Below are positions 14,662 through 49,172 of a DNA stretch of 54,421 bases, one piece after another. The DNA is from a virus, in IMG/VR virus record IMGVR_UViG_3300049737_000325, positions 1 through 54,421 of that record; one strand, written 5' to 3'. Positions within the stretch are counted from its first letter, which is position 1, and the number at the start of each line of letters is the position of its first letter. Under the pieces are notes generated by a model. The model searched no databases and was not told where the DNA came from. It worked only from the letters and a program-made list of their open reading frames with translations. The translations under genes were made by a program, and so were the position numbers.

Positions 14662-16050
14662 TTATAGTTCAAAGTTAGCTAATGAGAATTTCTCATATTG
14701 AGTTCCTGGGTGGAATCCAGCTTTAACTAATGCGTATCTAGATTTTACAGCTACTTTCGGAGCCATAGTTCCTTCAACGATAGTTTGTACTGATTCAGCC
14801 ATTAAGTAAGGCATGAATACTAATCCAGGTCCGTTACCGTCACCTTTTCTACCAATTAAGATCTCAACATCGTCGAAAGCTACAGATGGGTCAGTATAAA
14901 CGTTGATACCAGCGATTGATCCTAAAGGATAAATTGCACCAGCAACTTGGTTTATTGTTTGAGCCATTGGGTAAGCTACGAAACCAGCAACACCTTGTAA
15001 AGCAGATGCAACTTTTCCACCTACTACAGCGAAGTTACCAGCACCTCTTCTACCTCTTTGCGCGATTAAGTTACCAGCAGCTAAGATTGCAGTTAAGATT
15101 CTTCTGTGTGAATCACCTTTAGTTTCACCAGAGTTAGCAGTGATAGCAATGTCCATAGTTTTAGGAACACCACCATCTAAACCGAATAGGTTAGTTCCAG
15201 CGATAGATCTCATCGTTAATAAGATGTGATTGTTAATAGACTGAGTTAATTCGTTAGTTAAAACTGCTTCTACTTGAGCAACAGCATCAACACCGAATTG
15301 TTTAAGATCTTGAACTTGCTCTCTTGTTACGGCAGCAGCAACTTGGAAAGTTTCAGCAGCAACGCTTTTAGAGAATAAGCTTAAGCCCATTACTTTGTCT
15401 GGAGTAGATTCACCTAAACCTCTTGACATTGGAGCTCCAAGACCAAGCTTGTCTTTAGCACCAGAAAATTCAGGAATATGATCTTCTAAAGCAGGTACTA
15501 ATTCAGCATCAGCATAAGTTACTGTTACTAGACCAGCTTCTAAAGTAGCAGCTCCTAATTTGATGATGTTTAAACCATCAATTCTAGAAGTTCCAACTTT
15601 TACATCACCAGCTGATTCAGCTAATGCAGTTCTAATGTAAGTTGGGTGTACAGTACCATCAGCTCCTCCGTTTGCAACGTCAGCACCTAAAGTTCCTCCT
15701 TCGTATACGAAGTCAAGGTAAGATAGTAATCCCATTGGTCCAGCCATAGGTACAACAGGTACTAGGTCTAAACCGATAGTTTGTGCAGCTACTTGCATAG
15801 CTAAAGGTAAAAGAGTTGGAGCTTTATCTCCAGATCCGTTTGCATTACCTGTTGGAAAACTTGTGTTTCCCATACCTGCTAAGTTCATACCAGGATTTAA
15901 AGACATGATGTTCGCGTCTTCATAAAGCTTGTGATTGTGACAGTATTCTGACATCCAAGCTAGTTTGCTAGATTCATTGATTCCTGTTGCTTCCTCAATA
16001 ATAGGAGCCCAAGTACCTCTGATCTCAGCTTCGTTAATTAAATTTGCCAT
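14662..16050 (-). CDS. 23: Major capsid protein gp23
   Basis: This 462-residue protein follows the gp21/22 gene, as in T4 (521 residues). The N-terminal 44 residues are a likely cleaved propeptide: KLYE|D at 41-45 fits the gp21 protease rule. The HK97-fold body shows conserved gp23 features such as LVPVVPMAGPMGLLSYLDF (about 95-113), a peptide like SLFSKSVAAETFQVAAAVTREQVQDLKQFGVD (E-loop/spine region) and a final GFHPGTQYEKFSLANFEL. A segment starting SLNPGM at 50-75 recurs in the 246-aa protein at 45887-46627. The leader is about 110 nt, and a strong terminator follows. Confidence 0.95.
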   Translation of the reverse strand: MANLINEAEIRGTWAPIIEEATGINESSKLAWMSEYCHNHKLYEDANIMSLNPGMNLAGMGNTSFPTGNANGSGDKAPTLLPLAMQVAAQTIGLDLVPVVPMAGPMGLLSYLDFVYEGGTLGADVANGGADGTVHPTYIRTALAESAGDVKVGTSRIDGLNIIKLGAATLEAGLVTVTYADAELVPALEDHIPEFSGAKDKLGLGAPMSRGLGESTPDKVMGLSLFSKSVAAETFQVAAAVTREQVQDLKQFGVDAVAQVEAVLTNELTQSINNHILLTMRSIAGTNLFGLDGGVPKTMDIAITANSGETKGDSHRRILTAILAAGNLIAQRGRRGAGNFAVVGGKVASALQGVAGFVAYPMAQTINQVAGAIYPLGSIAGINVYTDPSVAFDDVEILIGRKGDGNGPGLVFMPYLMAESVQTIVEGTMAPKVAVKSRYALVKAGFHPGTQYEKFSLANFEL

Positions 16051-16171: not shown

Positions 16172-17914
16172 TTACTTTTTAAATCTTTTGTTTAAAGCTG
16201 CAGCCATATCAGATACATCGTAAAGTGGCTCGTTCTTCTTCTCAGCAACTGCTGATTCGTTAACTGCCGCTAACTTTTCTAGGTCAACTTTTACCTCTCT
16301 TAGATCTCTAGTTTCCCAGAAGTTTCTAACTTGATACTCAGTATTTAGAGTATGGTATTTAGCTTGAGCTTTAATTTGTGTTTGTTTTGCTTCAGTTAAA
16401 GACTGAAATTTTTCTTTATATTCTGCAGGTGCAGATGACATAAAGAATGGTTCAGCGCTCTTAGCTTCAACAACAGCTTCAGCGTTTTCAATGATTGCAC
16501 TAATTTGCGCTTCATTCATAAATGATCTTTTTGCAACCTTAGCTCTAACTTCAGATTTAGCATCTTCGTTTAAAGTGTTGTAAGATTCTTGTATGCTATT
16601 AGATACTACATTTAAGAATGCAGGAGCTTCATTTTCTTTAACTTGTGCAGCTTCTACTAATGCGTCTAATTTAGAAGCGATTTCGTTCTTGTAAGATTCT
16701 AATGGATCGTGTACTCCGTCTTCACCTTCAGCTTCTTCATCAGATTCTCCAGGTTCAGCTTCTTCAGATTCTTCATCTGCAGTTACATCTTTAGTTTCAT
16801 CTTCTAATTCTTCAGCAGGCTCACCGATGTCACCTTTAGGATCTACATCACCTTCTTTAGAGTTATCACCAACTTCTTCTAAATCAGCTTCTTCTTTTTC
16901 AGCAGCAGGATCTTCTTCTTCAACTACTTCTTCTGCACCTTCACCAGCCTCATCATCTTCAACTACTTCTTCTGCACCTTCACCAGCCTCATCATCTTCA
17001 ACTACTTCTTCTGCACCTTCACCAGCTTCATCATCTTCAACTACTTCTTCTGCACCTTCACCAGCCTCATCATCTTCAACTACTTCTTCTGCACCTTCAC
17101 CAGCCTCATCATCTTCAACTACTTCTTCTTCAACAAATTCTTCAGCGTTTTCTTTATCATCTTTAGAAACATCTTCTACTGGATATTCTTCATCGCCTAC
17201 TTTAAATGTCTTTTCGCCTTTTGCAATTGCTTCTGCTCTTGCAGCACCAAATTCATTTCCTTCTTCAACTTCTTCAGTTTCTTCAACCTCTTCAGTTTCT
17301 TCAACCTCTTCAGTTTCTTCAACTTCTTCAGTTTCTTCAACTTCTTCAGTTTCTTCAACTTCTTCAGCATGATGTGCTTCATCAGCTTCTTCAACTTCTT
17401 CAGTTTCTTCAACCTCTTCAGTAGTTTCGTCAACTAAGCTTTCATTAATAGATGATGCAATATATTCAGCGTATTCTGATACAGACTGTAAATTTTCTTT
17501 TAAGTACTCAACGTATTCTAAAAGATTTTTATGAGTGTCAGTACCTTCATTATGAGATTCTGCTAAATAATCAGCGAAATCTTTAACTTTAGAAATACCT
17601 TCAGCTAAATGTTCAGAGTATTGAATACCTTGATCTAATTTTTCAGCTAGAGTCTCAGTATAAGATATACCTTGGTCTGCTTTTTCAGCGACGTGTTCCG
17701 AATATTGGATTGACTCGTCTAATTTGCCAGCTAAATACTCAACATATTCTGAGAGGGTATTTACGCTTTCAACTATGTGATCGTTGTGAGATTTTACATC
17801 TTCTAACGTTTCGTCTTCGTTTGTTGCGCCGATAGACTCTTTAATGCTTTTAATTTCATTAGCTAAGTACTCAGAATACTTATTGAAATCTTCAGCTTTT
17901 ACAAATTCTGCCAT
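16172..17914 (-). CDS. 22: Candidate nested scaffold product gp22 from internal start
   Basis: In frame with the fused gene, ATG at 17914 (Met209) begins MAEFVKAEDFNKYSEYLANE. The 25 bases before it are almost all A and T with an ATAATAATAAAAAC run, the same style as the leaders before gp23 and gp20. Met209 falls at the point where the protease domain ends, matching the gp21/gp22 border of T4. A separate 580-residue scaffold could thus be made in excess of protease, as the nested lambda C/Nu3 pair does. No experiment shows use of this start. Confidence 0.45.
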   Translation of the reverse strand: MAEFVKAEDFNKYSEYLANEIKSIKESIGATNEDETLEDVKSHNDHIVESVNTLSEYVEYLAGKLDESIQYSEHVAEKADQGISYTETLAEKLDQGIQYSEHLAEGISKVKDFADYLAESHNEGTDTHKNLLEYVEYLKENLQSVSEYAEYIASSINESLVDETTEEVEETEEVEEADEAHHAEEVEETEEVEETEEVEETEEVEETEEVEETEEVEEGNEFGAARAEAIAKGEKTFKVGDEEYPVEDVSKDDKENAEEFVEEEVVEDDEAGEGAEEVVEDDEAGEGAEEVVEDDEAGEGAEEVVEDDEAGEGAEEVVEDDEAGEGAEEVVEEEDPAAEKEEADLEEVGDNSKEGDVDPKGDIGEPAEELEDETKDVTADEESEEAEPGESDEEAEGEDGVHDPLESYKNEIASKLDALVEAAQVKENEAPAFLNVVSNSIQESYNTLNEDAKSEVRAKVAKRSFMNEAQISAIIENAEAVVEAKSAEPFFMSSAPAEYKEKFQSLTEAKQTQIKAQAKYHTLNTEYQVRNFWETRDLREVKVDLEKLAAVNESAVAEKKNEPLYDVSDMAAALNKRFKK

Positions 17915-18538
17915 GTTTTTATTATTATTTGTTTCTATATTTGTTTCAGTAATTTCTTGTGCTACTTCAAGTGCTTCTTGGTTTTCACCATTCATTTCAT
18001 ATATCCATAAACCAGAGTTATCATCAAATCCATAAGATTCGTTAACTCTTTTTAATTCAGCGTTGGCAAATCCAGGATCTGCTACTAAATCGTAAGTGAA
18101 TAATTGTTTGATTTTTACCTTTCCGTTAGATTCAACGGCTCCGGCTGCTCTTGATGAGATTTGTAAGGGTACTCCAGCATCTACTAGTGCTTTAGCTTGA
18201 CGTCCTGCGTCAGTATCTAATAGTTTGATTTTACCTCTTACTTCTTTTGATTCTTTGTCGTAATATAATTCTTCAATTATGTGAGACACACTCTTAAGGG
18301 AAATATCGAATTGCTGAGGATGATCTAATTCTCCTAATAACTTAGAAGACTTGATCTTGTCTTGCAATGCTTCTATCTGAGGAACGTATTCGCTCTCAGT
18401 ATAGATACGATTGTTTTTATTCTTTTGGTCAATTTGACCAAAGATACCTTCTAGAATGTAATCTTTATTCTCAGTTTCAGCTACGCTTAGTTGAGATGAA
18501 GACATTTCAACAATTAATAAGTTGTTGTTCTTTGCCAT
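16172..18538 (-). CDS. 21-22: Fused prohead protease gp21 and scaffold gp22
   Basis: The 788-residue product joins two T4 genes. Residues 1-208 are gp21-like (T4 gp21 is 212): YILEGIFGQIDQKNKNNRIY, catalytic His in LLGELDHP, catalytic Ser in LQISSRA, then LFTYDLVADPGFANA. Residues about 209-390 are heptad-like repeats (YSEYLA, YVEYLAGKLDESI, YSEHVAEKADQGI), a scaffold coiled coil. Next come Glu-rich EETEEV repeats, a GNEFGAARAEAI...YPV motif, five EDDEAGEGAEEVV repeats and a helical C-terminus (about 640-788). Sites like ITE|T near 195-199 could allow self-release. It lies between the gp67-like gene and gp23, as in T4. An internal ATG at the fusion joint (17914) has a typical A-rich leader. 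Confidence 0.88.
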   Translation of the reverse strand: MAKNNNLLIVEMSSSQLSVAETENKDYILEGIFGQIDQKNKNNRIYTESEYVPQIEALQDKIKSSKLLGELDHPQQFDISLKSVSHIIEELYYDKESKEVRGKIKLLDTDAGRQAKALVDAGVPLQISSRAAGAVESNGKVKIKQLFTYDLVADPGFANAELKRVNESYGFDDNSGLWIYEMNGENQEALEVAQEITETNIETNNNKNMAEFVKAEDFNKYSEYLANEIKSIKESIGATNEDETLEDVKSHNDHIVESVNTLSEYVEYLAGKLDESIQYSEHVAEKADQGISYTETLAEKLDQGIQYSEHLAEGISKVKDFADYLAESHNEGTDTHKNLLEYVEYLKENLQSVSEYAEYIASSINESLVDETTEEVEETEEVEEADEAHHAEEVEETEEVEETEEVEETEEVEETEEVEETEEVEEGNEFGAARAEAIAKGEKTFKVGDEEYPVEDVSKDDKENAEEFVEEEVVEDDEAGEGAEEVVEDDEAGEGAEEVVEDDEAGEGAEEVVEDDEAGEGAEEVVEDDEAGEGAEEVVEEEDPAAEKEEADLEEVGDNSKEGDVDPKGDIGEPAEELEDETKDVTADEESEEAEPGESDEEAEGEDGVHDPLESYKNEIASKLDALVEAAQVKENEAPAFLNVVSNSIQESYNTLNEDAKSEVRAKVAKRSFMNEAQISAIIENAEAVVEAKSAEPFFMSSAPAEYKEKFQSLTEAKQTQIKAQAKYHTLNTEYQVRNFWETRDLREVKVDLEKLAAVNESAVAEKKNEPLYDVSDMAAALNKRFKK
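16920..17114. repeat. Five tandem 39-bp repeats (13-residue acidic repeat)
   Basis: Five near-identical 39-bp units encode VVEDDEAGEGAEE in the scaffold part of the fused gp21/22 gene. One copy differs by a single base (agctt for agcct). The near-identity at DNA level points to recent expansion or gene conversion, so copy number may vary between isolates. Confidence 0.9.
17263..17440. repeat. 18-bp repeat tract encoding EETEEV
   Basis: Short units of tcttcagtttcttcaac type encode about eight EVEETE blocks, interrupted by an ADEAHHAEE insert. The tract is purine-biased on the minus strand and low in complexity. It lies between the coiled coil and the AAR motif of the scaffold. Confidence 0.85.
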
Positions 18539-32366: not shown

Positions 32367-33575
32367 TTAAAATAATGCCGAAGCATAAATTAGGTTTGTG
32401 TCTAATGTTTGTAATCCTATTGCAGTTAATACTCTATTAAGAGGATCGATCATACATTTTTCAAATTGAGTATCGTAATCTACTTGTGGTGCAATTTCAT
32501 AAGGATGTTCGTTTGGCATATATGCATAAACTTCTGATATTGGTGTTTTACAATTGTAAATCTTTAGCTTTTCACCATTACCAATTACCTTATATTTGTT
32601 TTTATATTTTGAATTTTGGTTCAATAAGTAGTTATAGTAACCTGCAGCTTTTACATTTGCTGGACATTTAAGTCCTACTTGAAATTCAATTTGATCGTCA
32701 ACAATATACTTGTCAATATTATTAGTTCTACGATTAAATGAAATATCATCTATGTTTGCAAGTTGAAATTCTTTCTTGCTAGTTTTCATAAACTGTACAA
32801 GTTCTTGAAGTTCTTCTGCACCTGGTGTTTGCTGAGATTTAAATAAAATCTTTAGTGCTTCTACTAGCTTTTGTCTAGCAAACTTTGGTGTTGATGATTG
32901 AATAGTATCAAAGCCGATTGTTTTTACCTTCTTTAAATGAGGGTGTCTATCAGTAACTTCTAGTTTATCATCCCATGCAATGTTTTGAATATACTTTTTC
33001 TTAGACATCCAAATACCATTATATGCTAATGATTCTAATTCAAAGAATAAGAAATTATCTGTGTTTCTAAGTTCTGCATATTTATGCATGGTTGCGGTAA
33101 TATAATCCTTAAGTCTAAATGCGTAAAATGCTAATATGAATTCATCAAGTGGTAAAGCCTTCTCTTCGTCTTTCCAAACAATAGTTTCATAAAGATCTTG
33201 GAACTGTACGTAACATGAATCTGTATCAATATAGATTACCGCTGGTTTTTCAACTTTACCTTTAACAGTTAAGCCGAATTGTTCATGTACTTTAGTGTCC
33301 TTGTGCCAAAACTCATTTACATACTTATTAAGTATGGTTTCAGAATATAGAATTGCGTTCTTACCTTGTTTCGTAATAGATTCTGCAATATCAATATTGA
33401 AGAAGTGAAACCACTTGTTACCGAATGCACCGTAGATAGAGTTAAGAGTTAATTTTACTGCTTGTTCATAAGCGGTATATTTAGCAGATAGCTGCTTGTA
33501 ATGACTTACAAGCAGCTCTGCATCTTCTCTACTAAGTTGATCGATTGGTTTCTCAGTAAGTGACTCTATATTCAT
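32367..33575 (-). CDS. 43B: DNA polymerase gp43, C-terminal part (motifs B and C)
   Basis: This 402-residue family B polymerase fragment contains palm motif B KLTLNSIYGAFGNKW (41-55) and motif C VIYIDTDSCYV (113-123, catalytic D117 and D119), then the thumb with KKKYIQNIAWDDK. The ATG start and about 40 leading residues precede motif B. Exonuclease motifs and motif A are on the separate gene at 38153-39559. The sum of both parts is 870 residues against 898 for T4 gp43, so nothing essential seems lost. The parts should assemble into one enzyme. The sliding clamp gene is directly upstream (3-nt gap). Confidence 0.94.
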   Translation of the reverse strand: MNIESLTEKPIDQLSREDAELLVSHYKQLSAKYTAYEQAVKLTLNSIYGAFGNKWFHFFNIDIAESITKQGKNAILYSETILNKYVNEFWHKDTKVHEQFGLTVKGKVEKPAVIYIDTDSCYVQFQDLYETIVWKDEEKALPLDEFILAFYAFRLKDYITATMHKYAELRNTDNFLFFELESLAYNGIWMSKKKYIQNIAWDDKLEVTDRHPHLKKVKTIGFDTIQSSTPKFARQKLVEALKILFKSQQTPGAEELQELVQFMKTSKKEFQLANIDDISFNRRTNNIDKYIVDDQIEFQVGLKCPANVKAAGYYNYLLNQNSKYKNKYKVIGNGEKLKIYNCKTPISEVYAYMPNEHPYEIAPQVDYDTQFEKCMIDPLNRVLTAIGLQTLDTNLIYASALF

Positions 33576-38152: not shown

Positions 38153-39559
38153 TTAGAGCTTAAATTTTTTTGTCAATTCGTCGGCTTTTGTGTAATATTC
38201 ATAAGATGTTTTCTTATACTCTTTTCTTTGGCCATATAAATCACCTAGAATCTTTTTAAGAATACTATCTTCTTTTTTATACACAACTCCATTTTCGCAT
38301 ACAATAACAGATTCATCTTTACGACGTTCTTTTATTTCTGCTTCTCCTACCATCTCAATAAATGCATCCGGTGAAATGTTAAACTGTCTCATTATAGATG
38401 GATATAGTGATGCAAAATCAAATGCACTTACACCACCATAATAACCCACAATAGGCTGTTTAACAAAAGCACCTTCATACTTAGCTTCTTTTTTACTGTC
38501 TGCTTTGTCGTATTCTACACCAATACGTTGTCCTTGCTCTGTTAACTTACGAGCAATTAAAGATTCAGTAACAGCCACCGGGGAGGCAGCTTTATATAAT
38601 GGCATTCTTGTAATCGTAGCTAAGGTTAAAAGAACTTCCATAGATCTAAGTTTCTGATCTATGTAATAAACTAAACAAGAGTCAATTACGTTATAGAAGA
38701 CATATTTCTTAAAGTCATTCTCGTAAAGATCTTGTAAAGATCCACTATATTGTATTTTACTAATACCGCCAAGCACTGCACCAGATACAAATGCTAACGC
38801 GTTAGATTCTTTTACAGCAACCGAACGATCGTACTTATCATATAATTGCATGTAATCTAAGATACCCATGTGTAGAGGTCTAGAGTCTTTTCTATCTAAA
38901 GCGCCAGTGATTGCAACCTTTTCTAAATCTATTTGTAAGATTTTACAACGGTTTACAATATACTGCCAGTCATAGTTAATAAAGTTCCATCCTGTCATCA
39001 TAGGGAATTTAGGTAAAAACTTATGTAGGAAAGTATAAACCATATCATACTCCGACTTAAATTTGTAATAACTAAATTCCCAATCAGAATCATAATTCTT
39101 GAGATGCTCATTAGTGTCATCTTCAATAGCTTTGATTTGTTTAGAGTCTAGATCTTCAAGGCCTAATACAATAGCCTTTTTATCTGGGGTAATAATTGAG
39201 AATGTTAATATTCGAGATTTAGCTTCTTCAGGTTTTGGAAAACCATCTACAATTTCAGTCTCAATATCAACAAAATATGTTTTAGGCATATTAAACTCAA
39301 AGATTTCTTCTTGATCTTTTTCTGGTAGACCATCCATAAAGTAAAGAAGTGAAAACTTATTAAAGGATCTAGAAATAGATTTCTTAAGTGGTCGCCCGTC
39401 CCAATTTGTAGTGGAACGATCTTTCCATTTATCATTATCTTTTGCTACAACCCAATTCTGAAATTTATCAATTCCATATCGTTTAAATGATACTGTACCC
39501 TCTTTGTTATAGTAAGATACAATTACTTCTTTCTCTTTTTGCTCAATATCTAATAACAT
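38153..39559 (-). CDS. 43A: DNA polymerase gp43, N-terminal part (exonuclease and motif A)
   Basis: This 468-residue fragment has the 3'-5' exonuclease motifs: Exo I YFVDIETE (D98, E100), Exo II GWNFINYDWQY, Exo III YNVIDSCLVYYID. It continues into the palm with motif A FDFASLYPSIMR (catalytic Asp about 381) and the fingers peptide GQRKEYKKT whose Arg and Lys bind dNTP. It stops soon after, before motif B. The rest is at 32367-33575. The stop is genuine, with a terminator and other genes following, so this is a true two-gene enzyme. The start overlaps the dUTPase stop by one base (TAATG). Confidence 0.94.
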   Translation of the reverse strand: MLLDIEQKEKEVIVSYYNKEGTVSFKRYGIDKFQNWVVAKDNDKWKDRSTTNWDGRPLKKSISRSFNKFSLLYFMDGLPEKDQEEIFEFNMPKTYFVDIETEIVDGFPKPEEAKSRILTFSIITPDKKAIVLGLEDLDSKQIKAIEDDTNEHLKNYDSDWEFSYYKFKSEYDMVYTFLHKFLPKFPMMTGWNFINYDWQYIVNRCKILQIDLEKVAITGALDRKDSRPLHMGILDYMQLYDKYDRSVAVKESNALAFVSGAVLGGISKIQYSGSLQDLYENDFKKYVFYNVIDSCLVYYIDQKLRSMEVLLTLATITRMPLYKAASPVAVTESLIARKLTEQGQRIGVEYDKADSKKEAKYEGAFVKQPIVGYYGGVSAFDFASLYPSIMRQFNISPDAFIEMVGEAEIKERRKDESVIVCENGVVYKKEDSILKKILGDLYGQRKEYKKTSYEYYTKADELTKKFKL

Positions 39560-45886: not shown

Positions 45887-46627
45887 TTATCCCATTGCTG
45901 CTTCAATGTCCCATTGAATTCTTTGTAATGGATCGTCGCCTCTAAATTCTTTCTTCACCCATGCAATTAATCCAGGTTCGAACTTAGCATTTTGTGCCAT
46001 TTCAAAACCAAAGCTTGAGTCGTGTCCACCTCCATCATTATCGTATGCTAGATCAGAAATCCACTTATCATACTTCTTTTGGTTCCACTTTACTTTCTTA
46101 ATTTTTTTAGCATGAGGTCCGTCTCCTAATGTAGAAGTGGCAGCCATGTAACTTCCAGGTTTAAATACACCAAGATCTTTACCAGTCTCATCGTACTTGA
46201 TTTCTTTTCTAAATCTTCTTAATGAATATTCACCACCTTTAAGCTGTGTTCTAGGAACTACTTCTCCTTGAGATGCACCAATAGCTATTTTTCTTTCTTC
46301 AGCTTTTTTAGGATCTGTTTCAAAATGTAGATCTCTAACTGCATTTTCAAATAAAGCCGCTTCATAAATATTATCAACCATCGATTCATTAACAAACGTT
46401 GAGAATTGTGTATATAAATTAAAAGATTCCATTTCTAATTTCTTTTTTGTATTATCCTTCTTAGCCTCTTCTTCATCATCATCTATATCTGCTACTGAAA
46501 GAACGTCTCCAGAACCTACTGTAGTTGCTGTTGGTAAAACTGGGTCTCCAATACCTCCAATAGTCATACCTGGATTTAAAGATACTGCTCCTGCTGAATT
46601 TTCTTCTAATGATTTATCTTCTGACAT
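45887..46627 (-). CDS. Protein with capsid N-arm copy and capsid-targeting-like motif, 246 aa
   Basis: Residues 16-41 (SLNPGMTIGGIGD ... GSGD) match residues 50-75 of gp23 (SLNPGMNLAGMGN ... GSGD) at 14 of 26 positions by my alignment. An acidic linker (DDDEEEAKKD) and then MESFNLYTQFSTFVNES (67-83) follow, a Phe-rich capsid-targeting-like stretch, and DNIYE|A at 86-91 fits the gp21 cleavage rule. The rest is a soluble, basic domain (KKIKKVKWNQKKYDKWISDLAYD). I infer a head protein that uses the gp23 arm to join the capsid or core. Alternatively an internal start at Met67 could make a separate packaged product. Confidence 0.6.
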   Translation of the reverse strand: MSEDKSLEENSAGAVSLNPGMTIGGIGDPVLPTATTVGSGDVLSVADIDDDEEEAKKDNTKKKLEMESFNLYTQFSTFVNESMVDNIYEAALFENAVRDLHFETDPKKAEERKIAIGASQGEVVPRTQLKGGEYSLRRFRKEIKYDETGKDLGVFKPGSYMAATSTLGDGPHAKKIKKVKWNQKKYDKWISDLAYDNDGGGHDSSFGFEMAQNAKFEPGLIAWVKKEFRGDDPLQRIQWDIEAAMG

Positions 46628-48755: not shown

Positions 48756-49172
48756 TTATTTAGCTTTAATTTTTGCTTGATGGCCATTAGTTTCTGTATA
48801 CTGAAATGCAAATTTAGACTTTGCAAATAAAGTACCCATTGTAAAGGAAATAAAAGTACCTTCTGGATTTTTCATTGCTATATTGTATGCATCCCCAGCA
48901 GAAGCTTCATCATCAAAAATACCAATAATATTCTTTGAGGTTGCAGATCCCATTCTAATTTCACCTTGTAATCTAACAGATTGACCATTAAAATCTACAT
49001 TGTTATGTGCCATTAATAAATACTTAGTTGCACCCTTTTCTGGAAGGTTATCAGCATGTTCGCCAAATTCAGTTCTAGTATTAAAGTAATAAGATCCAAA
49101 TGGTATTGATTCGTTTACTTCTTCGTTTCTTACGTTTCCAGTAAAGCTTTCGAAAGATTCTATATTATTCAT
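48756..49172 (-). CDS. Small late protein with capsid-targeting-like start, 138 aa
   Basis: It starts MNNIESFESFTGNVRNEEVN, again Phe-x-x-Phe near residues 7-10, then VNE|S, a looser match to the cleavage rule. The remainder is a beta-rich small domain (YYFNTRTEFGEH, KYLLMAHNNVDFNGQ, GTFISFTMGTLF) with no recognised motif. A near-match late box lies 18 nt upstream. The 703-aa gene follows 2 nt later. Packaging is inferred from the N-terminus and block context. Confidence 0.5.
   Translation of the reverse strand: MNNIESFESFTGNVRNEEVNESIPFGSYYFNTRTEFGEHADNLPEKGATKYLLMAHNNVDFNGQSVRLQGEIRMGSATSKNIIGIFDDEASAGDAYNIAMKNPEGTFISFTMGTLFAKSKFAFQYTETNGHQAKIKAK

Follow-up and report, generated by a model that had tools for sequence, protein, structure and literature searches.

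The question raised by this locus is why a second protein of a T4-like phage should carry a copy of the N-terminal arm of that phage's own major capsid protein. The window, meaning the whole stretch of DNA analysed, is a 54,421-base virus record from a giant T4-like phage. In T4, residues 66–91 of the processed capsid protein (gp23*) form the N-fist (PMC7136217), a name that is used below for the copies as well. The features concerned are as follows, with a bar marking each cut; for proteins of the window, the cuts are predicted.

14662..16050, minus strand: gp23 major capsid protein (PF07068, E 5.7e-44)
15826..15903, minus strand: gp23 residues 50–75, mature N-arm segment, with the cut predicted at KLYE44|D45
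16172..18538, minus strand: gp21-like prohead protease (PF03420, E 8e-12; phrog_207 head maturation protease, E 5.6e-40)
45887..46627, minus strand: ORF of the 246-aa head-type protein with an N-fist copy, with 24 relatives among viral contigs
46601..46627, minus strand: propeptide MSEDKSLEE predicted from sequence, with a gp21-type site LEE|N at its end
46505..46582, minus strand: N-fist copy, residues 16–41, SLNPGMTIGGIGDPVLPTATTVGSGD
46433..46504, minus strand: acidic-then-lysine linker read from the sequence, residues 42–65, DDDEEEAKKDNTKKK
46385..46432, minus strand: residues 66–81, MESFNLYTQFSTFVNE, capsid-targeting-like, with a second predicted site VNE|S at the end
45890..46384, minus strand: conserved C-terminal putative cargo domain, residues 82–246 (alignment A2)
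48756..49172, minus strand: 138-aa protein near the 246-aa gene, whose homologue carries the N-fist module in a related phage (L075, G021)

The match in the window is genuine. The sequence-only reading had reported that residues 16–41 of the 246-aa protein agree with gp23 residues 50–75 (SLNPGMNLAGMGNTSFPTGNANGSGD) at 14 of 26 positions, and this count was confirmed. When both full proteins were compared by BLASTP, the arm segment alone was aligned (15/30, E 6e-6). A Smith-Waterman comparison of the gp23 arm with every ORF of the window gave the 246-aa protein a score of 80, against a maximum of 46 for shuffled arms (n = 20) and also for arms from other phages (n = 12). A chance match of low-complexity Gly/Ser/Pro sequence would suit a segment rich in G, S, P and T, but it is refuted by the shuffled-arm and mismatched-arm controls, the permutation test and the synteny described below. 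The same reading took the segment for the mature capsid N-arm, and this too held: in gp23 it lies just past the predicted KLYE|D cut, and the copy lies past an LxE| site of its own, SLEE|N. The window segment would correspond to the T4 N-fist by position rather than by structure, and for the huge phages in general the equivalence is likewise presumed from position. The gp23 N-fist is probably the source of the copied segment. Among phage records, the window gp23 is closest to that of LR756500, a 462-kb uncultured phage (52.5%), with Lak phages next.

Outside the arm, the 246-aa protein does not resemble gp23. PF07068, the HK97-fold domain, had no match in it, and no Pfam family scored above the cut-off for the whole protein, nor did any family for its C-terminal domain. 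The AlphaFold model (pLDDT 57, pTM 0.31) leaves the arm unstructured and is too poor for a fold search. The linker contains 5 K/R against 11 D/E residues, acidic first and then KKK; it is thus more acidic than basic, so the idea of a DNA-binding tail cannot apply to all carriers. A targeting-like motif, FNLYTQFSTFVNE, lies internally at residues 69–81 and resembles the T4 sequence MKTYQEFIAE. It is followed directly by the cargo domain, and in the alignment of relatives (A2) its last residue, E81, is nearly invariant. The gene is flanked by a 703-aa ORF and a nucleotidyltransferase-like ORF, and no primase was read among the neighbouring ORFs. The predicted maker of the cuts, judged by its family matches, is the gp21-like protease at 16172..18538. 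This ORF runs on into long acidic repeats (EVEETEEVEE, VVEDDEAGEGAEE) and may perhaps be a protease-scaffold fusion. Elsewhere in the window, the ORFs at 32367–33575 and 38153–39559 appear to resemble the C- and N-terminal parts, respectively, of a family B DNA polymerase; between these polymerase-like halves lie an ORF resembling a sliding clamp and genes resembling those of ribonucleotide reductase.

Relatives of the 246-aa protein are encoded by 24 viral contigs, and in most of them the arm is present in the form N/ITPG..GGMGxVxLPx..GSGD. In three (G017, G018 and G021), the C-terminal domain occurs without the arm. Instead, another ORF opens with the arm, and in all three cases a run of lysines and a sequence resembling a targeting signal come next. 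The 138-aa protein of the window shares 50% identity over 132 aa (E 5e-40) with the carrier ORF of G021. The arm thus behaves as a module that changes carriers, retained while fused to different cargo among relatives, and a lysine run follows it in most carriers. Some relatives are multidomain polyproteins (L016 4551, 669 aa; L024 2925, 853 aa; L073, 433 aa; L074, 537 aa), their domains being split by ESVVNE/ESVITE motifs that resemble repeated protease sites; the arm lies near the start of these proteins, or mid-protein in L024. In a further ORF (L014 524–2239), a DUF3008 (PF11450) module is fused ahead of the arm (E 1.3e-9), and a weaker match to the same family was found in the LR756500 carrier ORF (L062).

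Searches by tblastn against phages with the whole 246-aa protein or its 72-aa N-terminal part found nothing; the link to other phages surfaced only in searches that took the arm of the phage concerned as query. A profile built from 15 arms (A1) was searched in 24 records. It recovered gp23 and at least one non-capsid ORF in the window, in four further contigs (G023, G024, G012, G015) and in LR756500, PTm1, LR756502, LR745206 and LR756501, the weakest matches (LR756501, LR745206 and LR756502) having E values of 0.005 to 0.8 and then being judged by sequence. Because arms differ between lineages, the gp23 N-arm of each phage was also compared with that phage's own genome, and in 9 of the 11 genomes or contigs a single non-capsid ORF was prominent: gp61.1 of T4, 61.1 of JS98, proteins of the cyanophages S-SSM7 and P-HM2, ORF-299 of PTm1, and ORFs in Lak-A2, 121Q, LR756504 and the window. 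No copy was found by this search in pT24 or Ackermannvirus rabagast. In T4, gp61.1 was the sole outstanding ORF besides gp23 (71, against a shuffled maximum of 44). Own arms scored 59–103 and mismatched arms at most 51, except for LR756504, where the arms of sister huge phages match too. The shared stretches are lineage-specific, such as GATIGTNWSS in LR756502, TNVGPINTQTT in P-HM2 and GVGDPVP in Lak-A2. The earlier view that such borrowing is unusual was therefore not borne out, as the copy is a general feature of T4-like phages, with cases in T4 (gp61.1), in cyanophages and in huge phages. The objection that the match is unconserved and hence accidental fails, since most relatives of the 246-aa protein have the arm and the three contigs whose relative is without it have it on another ORF.

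The register of the copies relative to the maturation cut is kept. In almost every carrier that bears a leader, the arm follows closely on a motif of the form [LIVMF]xE, as in gp21 sites, and the glutamate column of A1 is invariant; a binomial figure for these sites exaggerates their significance, the positions having been placed by hand and the carriers not being independent of one another. The cyanophage copies begin with the arm at the N-terminus, without a leader and in the register of mature gp23; in S-RIM8 the copy reads M|TIATAGTGGF against LSE|TLATAGTGGF in gp23. Such adjacency to an LxE| site or N-terminus, together with carriers that look like core cargo, could also mean that the segment is recognised before docking by a partner common to both proteins, for instance the scaffold core or gp21. 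The copy would then turn its carrier into an efficient substrate of the protease or a passenger of the core and would have no role in the mature shell. This explanation is judged unlikely. Other T4 substrates of gp21 (the internal proteins, gp22, gp67 and gp24) are not among the own-arm hits, the N-terminal cyanophage copies have no leader to cut, and the T4 capsid-targeting sequence of about 10 residues is sufficient for incorporation and processing (PMC9026906, PMC9958956).

In T4 and its Straboviridae counterparts, the 61.1 gene lies near the primase gene 61, and the cyanophage copies lie beside gp61 too, which argues for one old gene in Straboviridae and cyanophages. The 61.1 gene of JS98 (L136) has the T4 late-promoter consensus TATAAATA 21 bases before its start, and the Konradin copy is preceded by CATAAATA, with one mismatch to that consensus; late promoters at these two copies only, one of them imperfect, are weak evidence. 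A location beside replication genes and outside the head operon would be compatible with a decoy or competitor that binds a host factor or a capsid-sensing defence, or slows gp23 assembly, and sensing of major capsid proteins by defence systems is known. The targeting-type leaders and protease sites nevertheless point to the prohead, the late-promoter consensus before JS98 61.1 also counts against a decoy, and conservation from phages of E. coli to those of cyanobacteria speaks against a single host target. A decoy is accordingly regarded as very improbable.

The copies also track the gp23 of their own phage. Across 13 lineages with one representative each, the mean score of own pairs was 92, against 35 with the gp23 of other lineages, and none of 100,000 permutations reached the observed sum. 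Among nine huge or PTm-type phages, the corresponding values were 97 and 48 (1 of 100,000 permutations). Some carriers had been picked because they matched the gp23 of the same phage, a choice that tilts the comparison towards own pairs; the mismatched-arm control, run to gauge this bias, leaves the co-divergence standing. The tracking of arm and gp23 holds at the scale of lineages only: within Straboviridae, 61.1 matches the gp23 of other members equally well or better than its own, and for LR756504, G015 and G012 the gp23 of another lineage ranks first or equal.

Functionless gene conversion or duplication from gp23, if repeated, would keep copies alike as well. The window pair has different codons at only 3 of its 12 identical residues and the LR756502 pair at 1 of 10, and gene conversion is possible for these two pairs, which are close in DNA. 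The corresponding figures of 5/5 in JS98, 3/5 in T4, 5/8 in Lak-A2 and 6/11 in P-HM2 speak against it, as does the register to the cleavage site or N-terminus that the copies have kept. That many pairs keep their identity despite changed codons suggests selection acting on the protein, and conversion without function is likewise regarded as very improbable.

Among the closest known proteins is T4 gp61.1 (phrog_1823/phrog_2086), which matches gp23 residues 58–94, the N-fist included. Like the window protein, it copies the N-fist of the phage's own gp23 behind an LxE|-type site. In gp61.1 a lysine-rich stretch comes after the copy; in the window protein the lysines come only after acidic residues. 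It begins MKTFKEFIKE|D, close to the internal-protein sequence MKTYQEFIAE|A, and the semi-tryptic N-terminus for its predicted cut is DMVAGDSGGNPENIS. It differs from the window protein in being 54 aa long, in having the targeting-type sequence ahead of the arm and in adjoining primase gene 61; in the window protein the arm comes first, followed by the acidic linker, the targeting-like sequence and the cargo domain, and its gene has other neighbours. As there is no primase neighbour in the window, the 246-aa protein is considered to work like gp61.1 and is not filed as its orthologue. The cyanophage proteins of phrog_696 ("major head protein"), together with S-SSM7_213 and PHM2_171, also have an N-fist copy matched to their own gp23 and lie beside gp61, but there the arm is at the extreme N-terminus without a leader and the C-terminal domains differ. 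The phrog_696 label appears to derive from the arm alone. A Klebsiella phage protein (L142 1150–1647) is also annotated as a major head or capsid protein, and in it as in the phrog_696 proteins apparently only the N-fist copy resembles gp23. Such labels on several copies indicate that annotation tools registered the similarity and left it unexplained.

In T4 gp23* itself, the N-fist occupies the same place after the maturation cut as the copy does, there as part of an HK97-fold shell subunit. The T4 internal proteins IPI–IPIII and Alt also reside in the head and bear a targeting propeptide that gp21 cuts, but no N-fist copy was seen in them, gp61.1 being the one T4 protein besides gp23 in which the segment appeared. 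Encapsulin cargo-loading peptides are short peptides that hold cargo inside an HK97-fold shell. They may offer an analogy of working, with the difference that here the peptide copies the arm of the shell protein itself.

The preferred reading, to which a probability of roughly 0.6 is assigned, is that the carriers are prohead-processed head proteins that dock the N-fist in trans into the shell and so anchor a basic tail or cargo. The 246-aa protein would be built into the prohead; in T4, the first ten residues of the internal proteins (MKTYQEFIAE) target them to the head (PMC9026906). The gp21-like protease would then cut it at SLEE|N and probably also at VNE|S. The first cut would create a mature N-terminus imitating the N-fist of processed gp23*, and both together would release the cargo domain from an N-fist peptide some 70 residues long. 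The T4 N-fist contacts four subunits in two capsomers, is disordered in the unexpanded prohead and becomes ordered on expansion (PMC9958956, PMC7136217). An N-fist supplied in trans may thus dock on gp23 as the shell expands and the gp23 N-fists move into place, occupying a site left empty by gp23 arms. Such a site may lie next to the portal, where the N-fists of the five facing subunits are disordered in T4 (PMC9958956, PMC7136217), or alternatively next to vertex subunits that have no N-fist. Through the docked N-fist, either the cargo or the attached basic tail (which may sit on DNA) would be anchored to the shell. The initial suggestion that the 246-aa protein may dock at the site of a capsid subunit thus appears sound, since the N-fist binds neighbouring subunits. 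That T4-like phages as a whole share a class of head component of this kind, either small or fused to cargo, is rated at even odds; its in-trans N-fist would replace the mature capsid arm in the expanded shell, for instance at the portal or vertices, it would be evolutionarily coupled to the major capsid protein, and in T4 it would be gp61.1.

In the literature searched, which excluded subscription papers and preprints, gp61.1 was found by name in genome papers only, one of them a table entry, and no function was found for it. No mention was found there of an N-fist copy in a second protein or of a link between gp61.1 and the N-fist, which itself is described in papers on the T4 head. The copies suggest a component of the head, so far overlooked, that fits into the shell, and a testable role follows for gp61.1 and its relatives in cyanophages and huge phages (Lak among them). 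If docking is true, it would reveal a means by which the heads of T4-like phages hold proteins or DNA on their shell, and it would yield a loading peptide specific to each shell. At the portal vertex, the N-fists of T4 gp23 are disordered, and the proposal also bears on what occupies their sites there.
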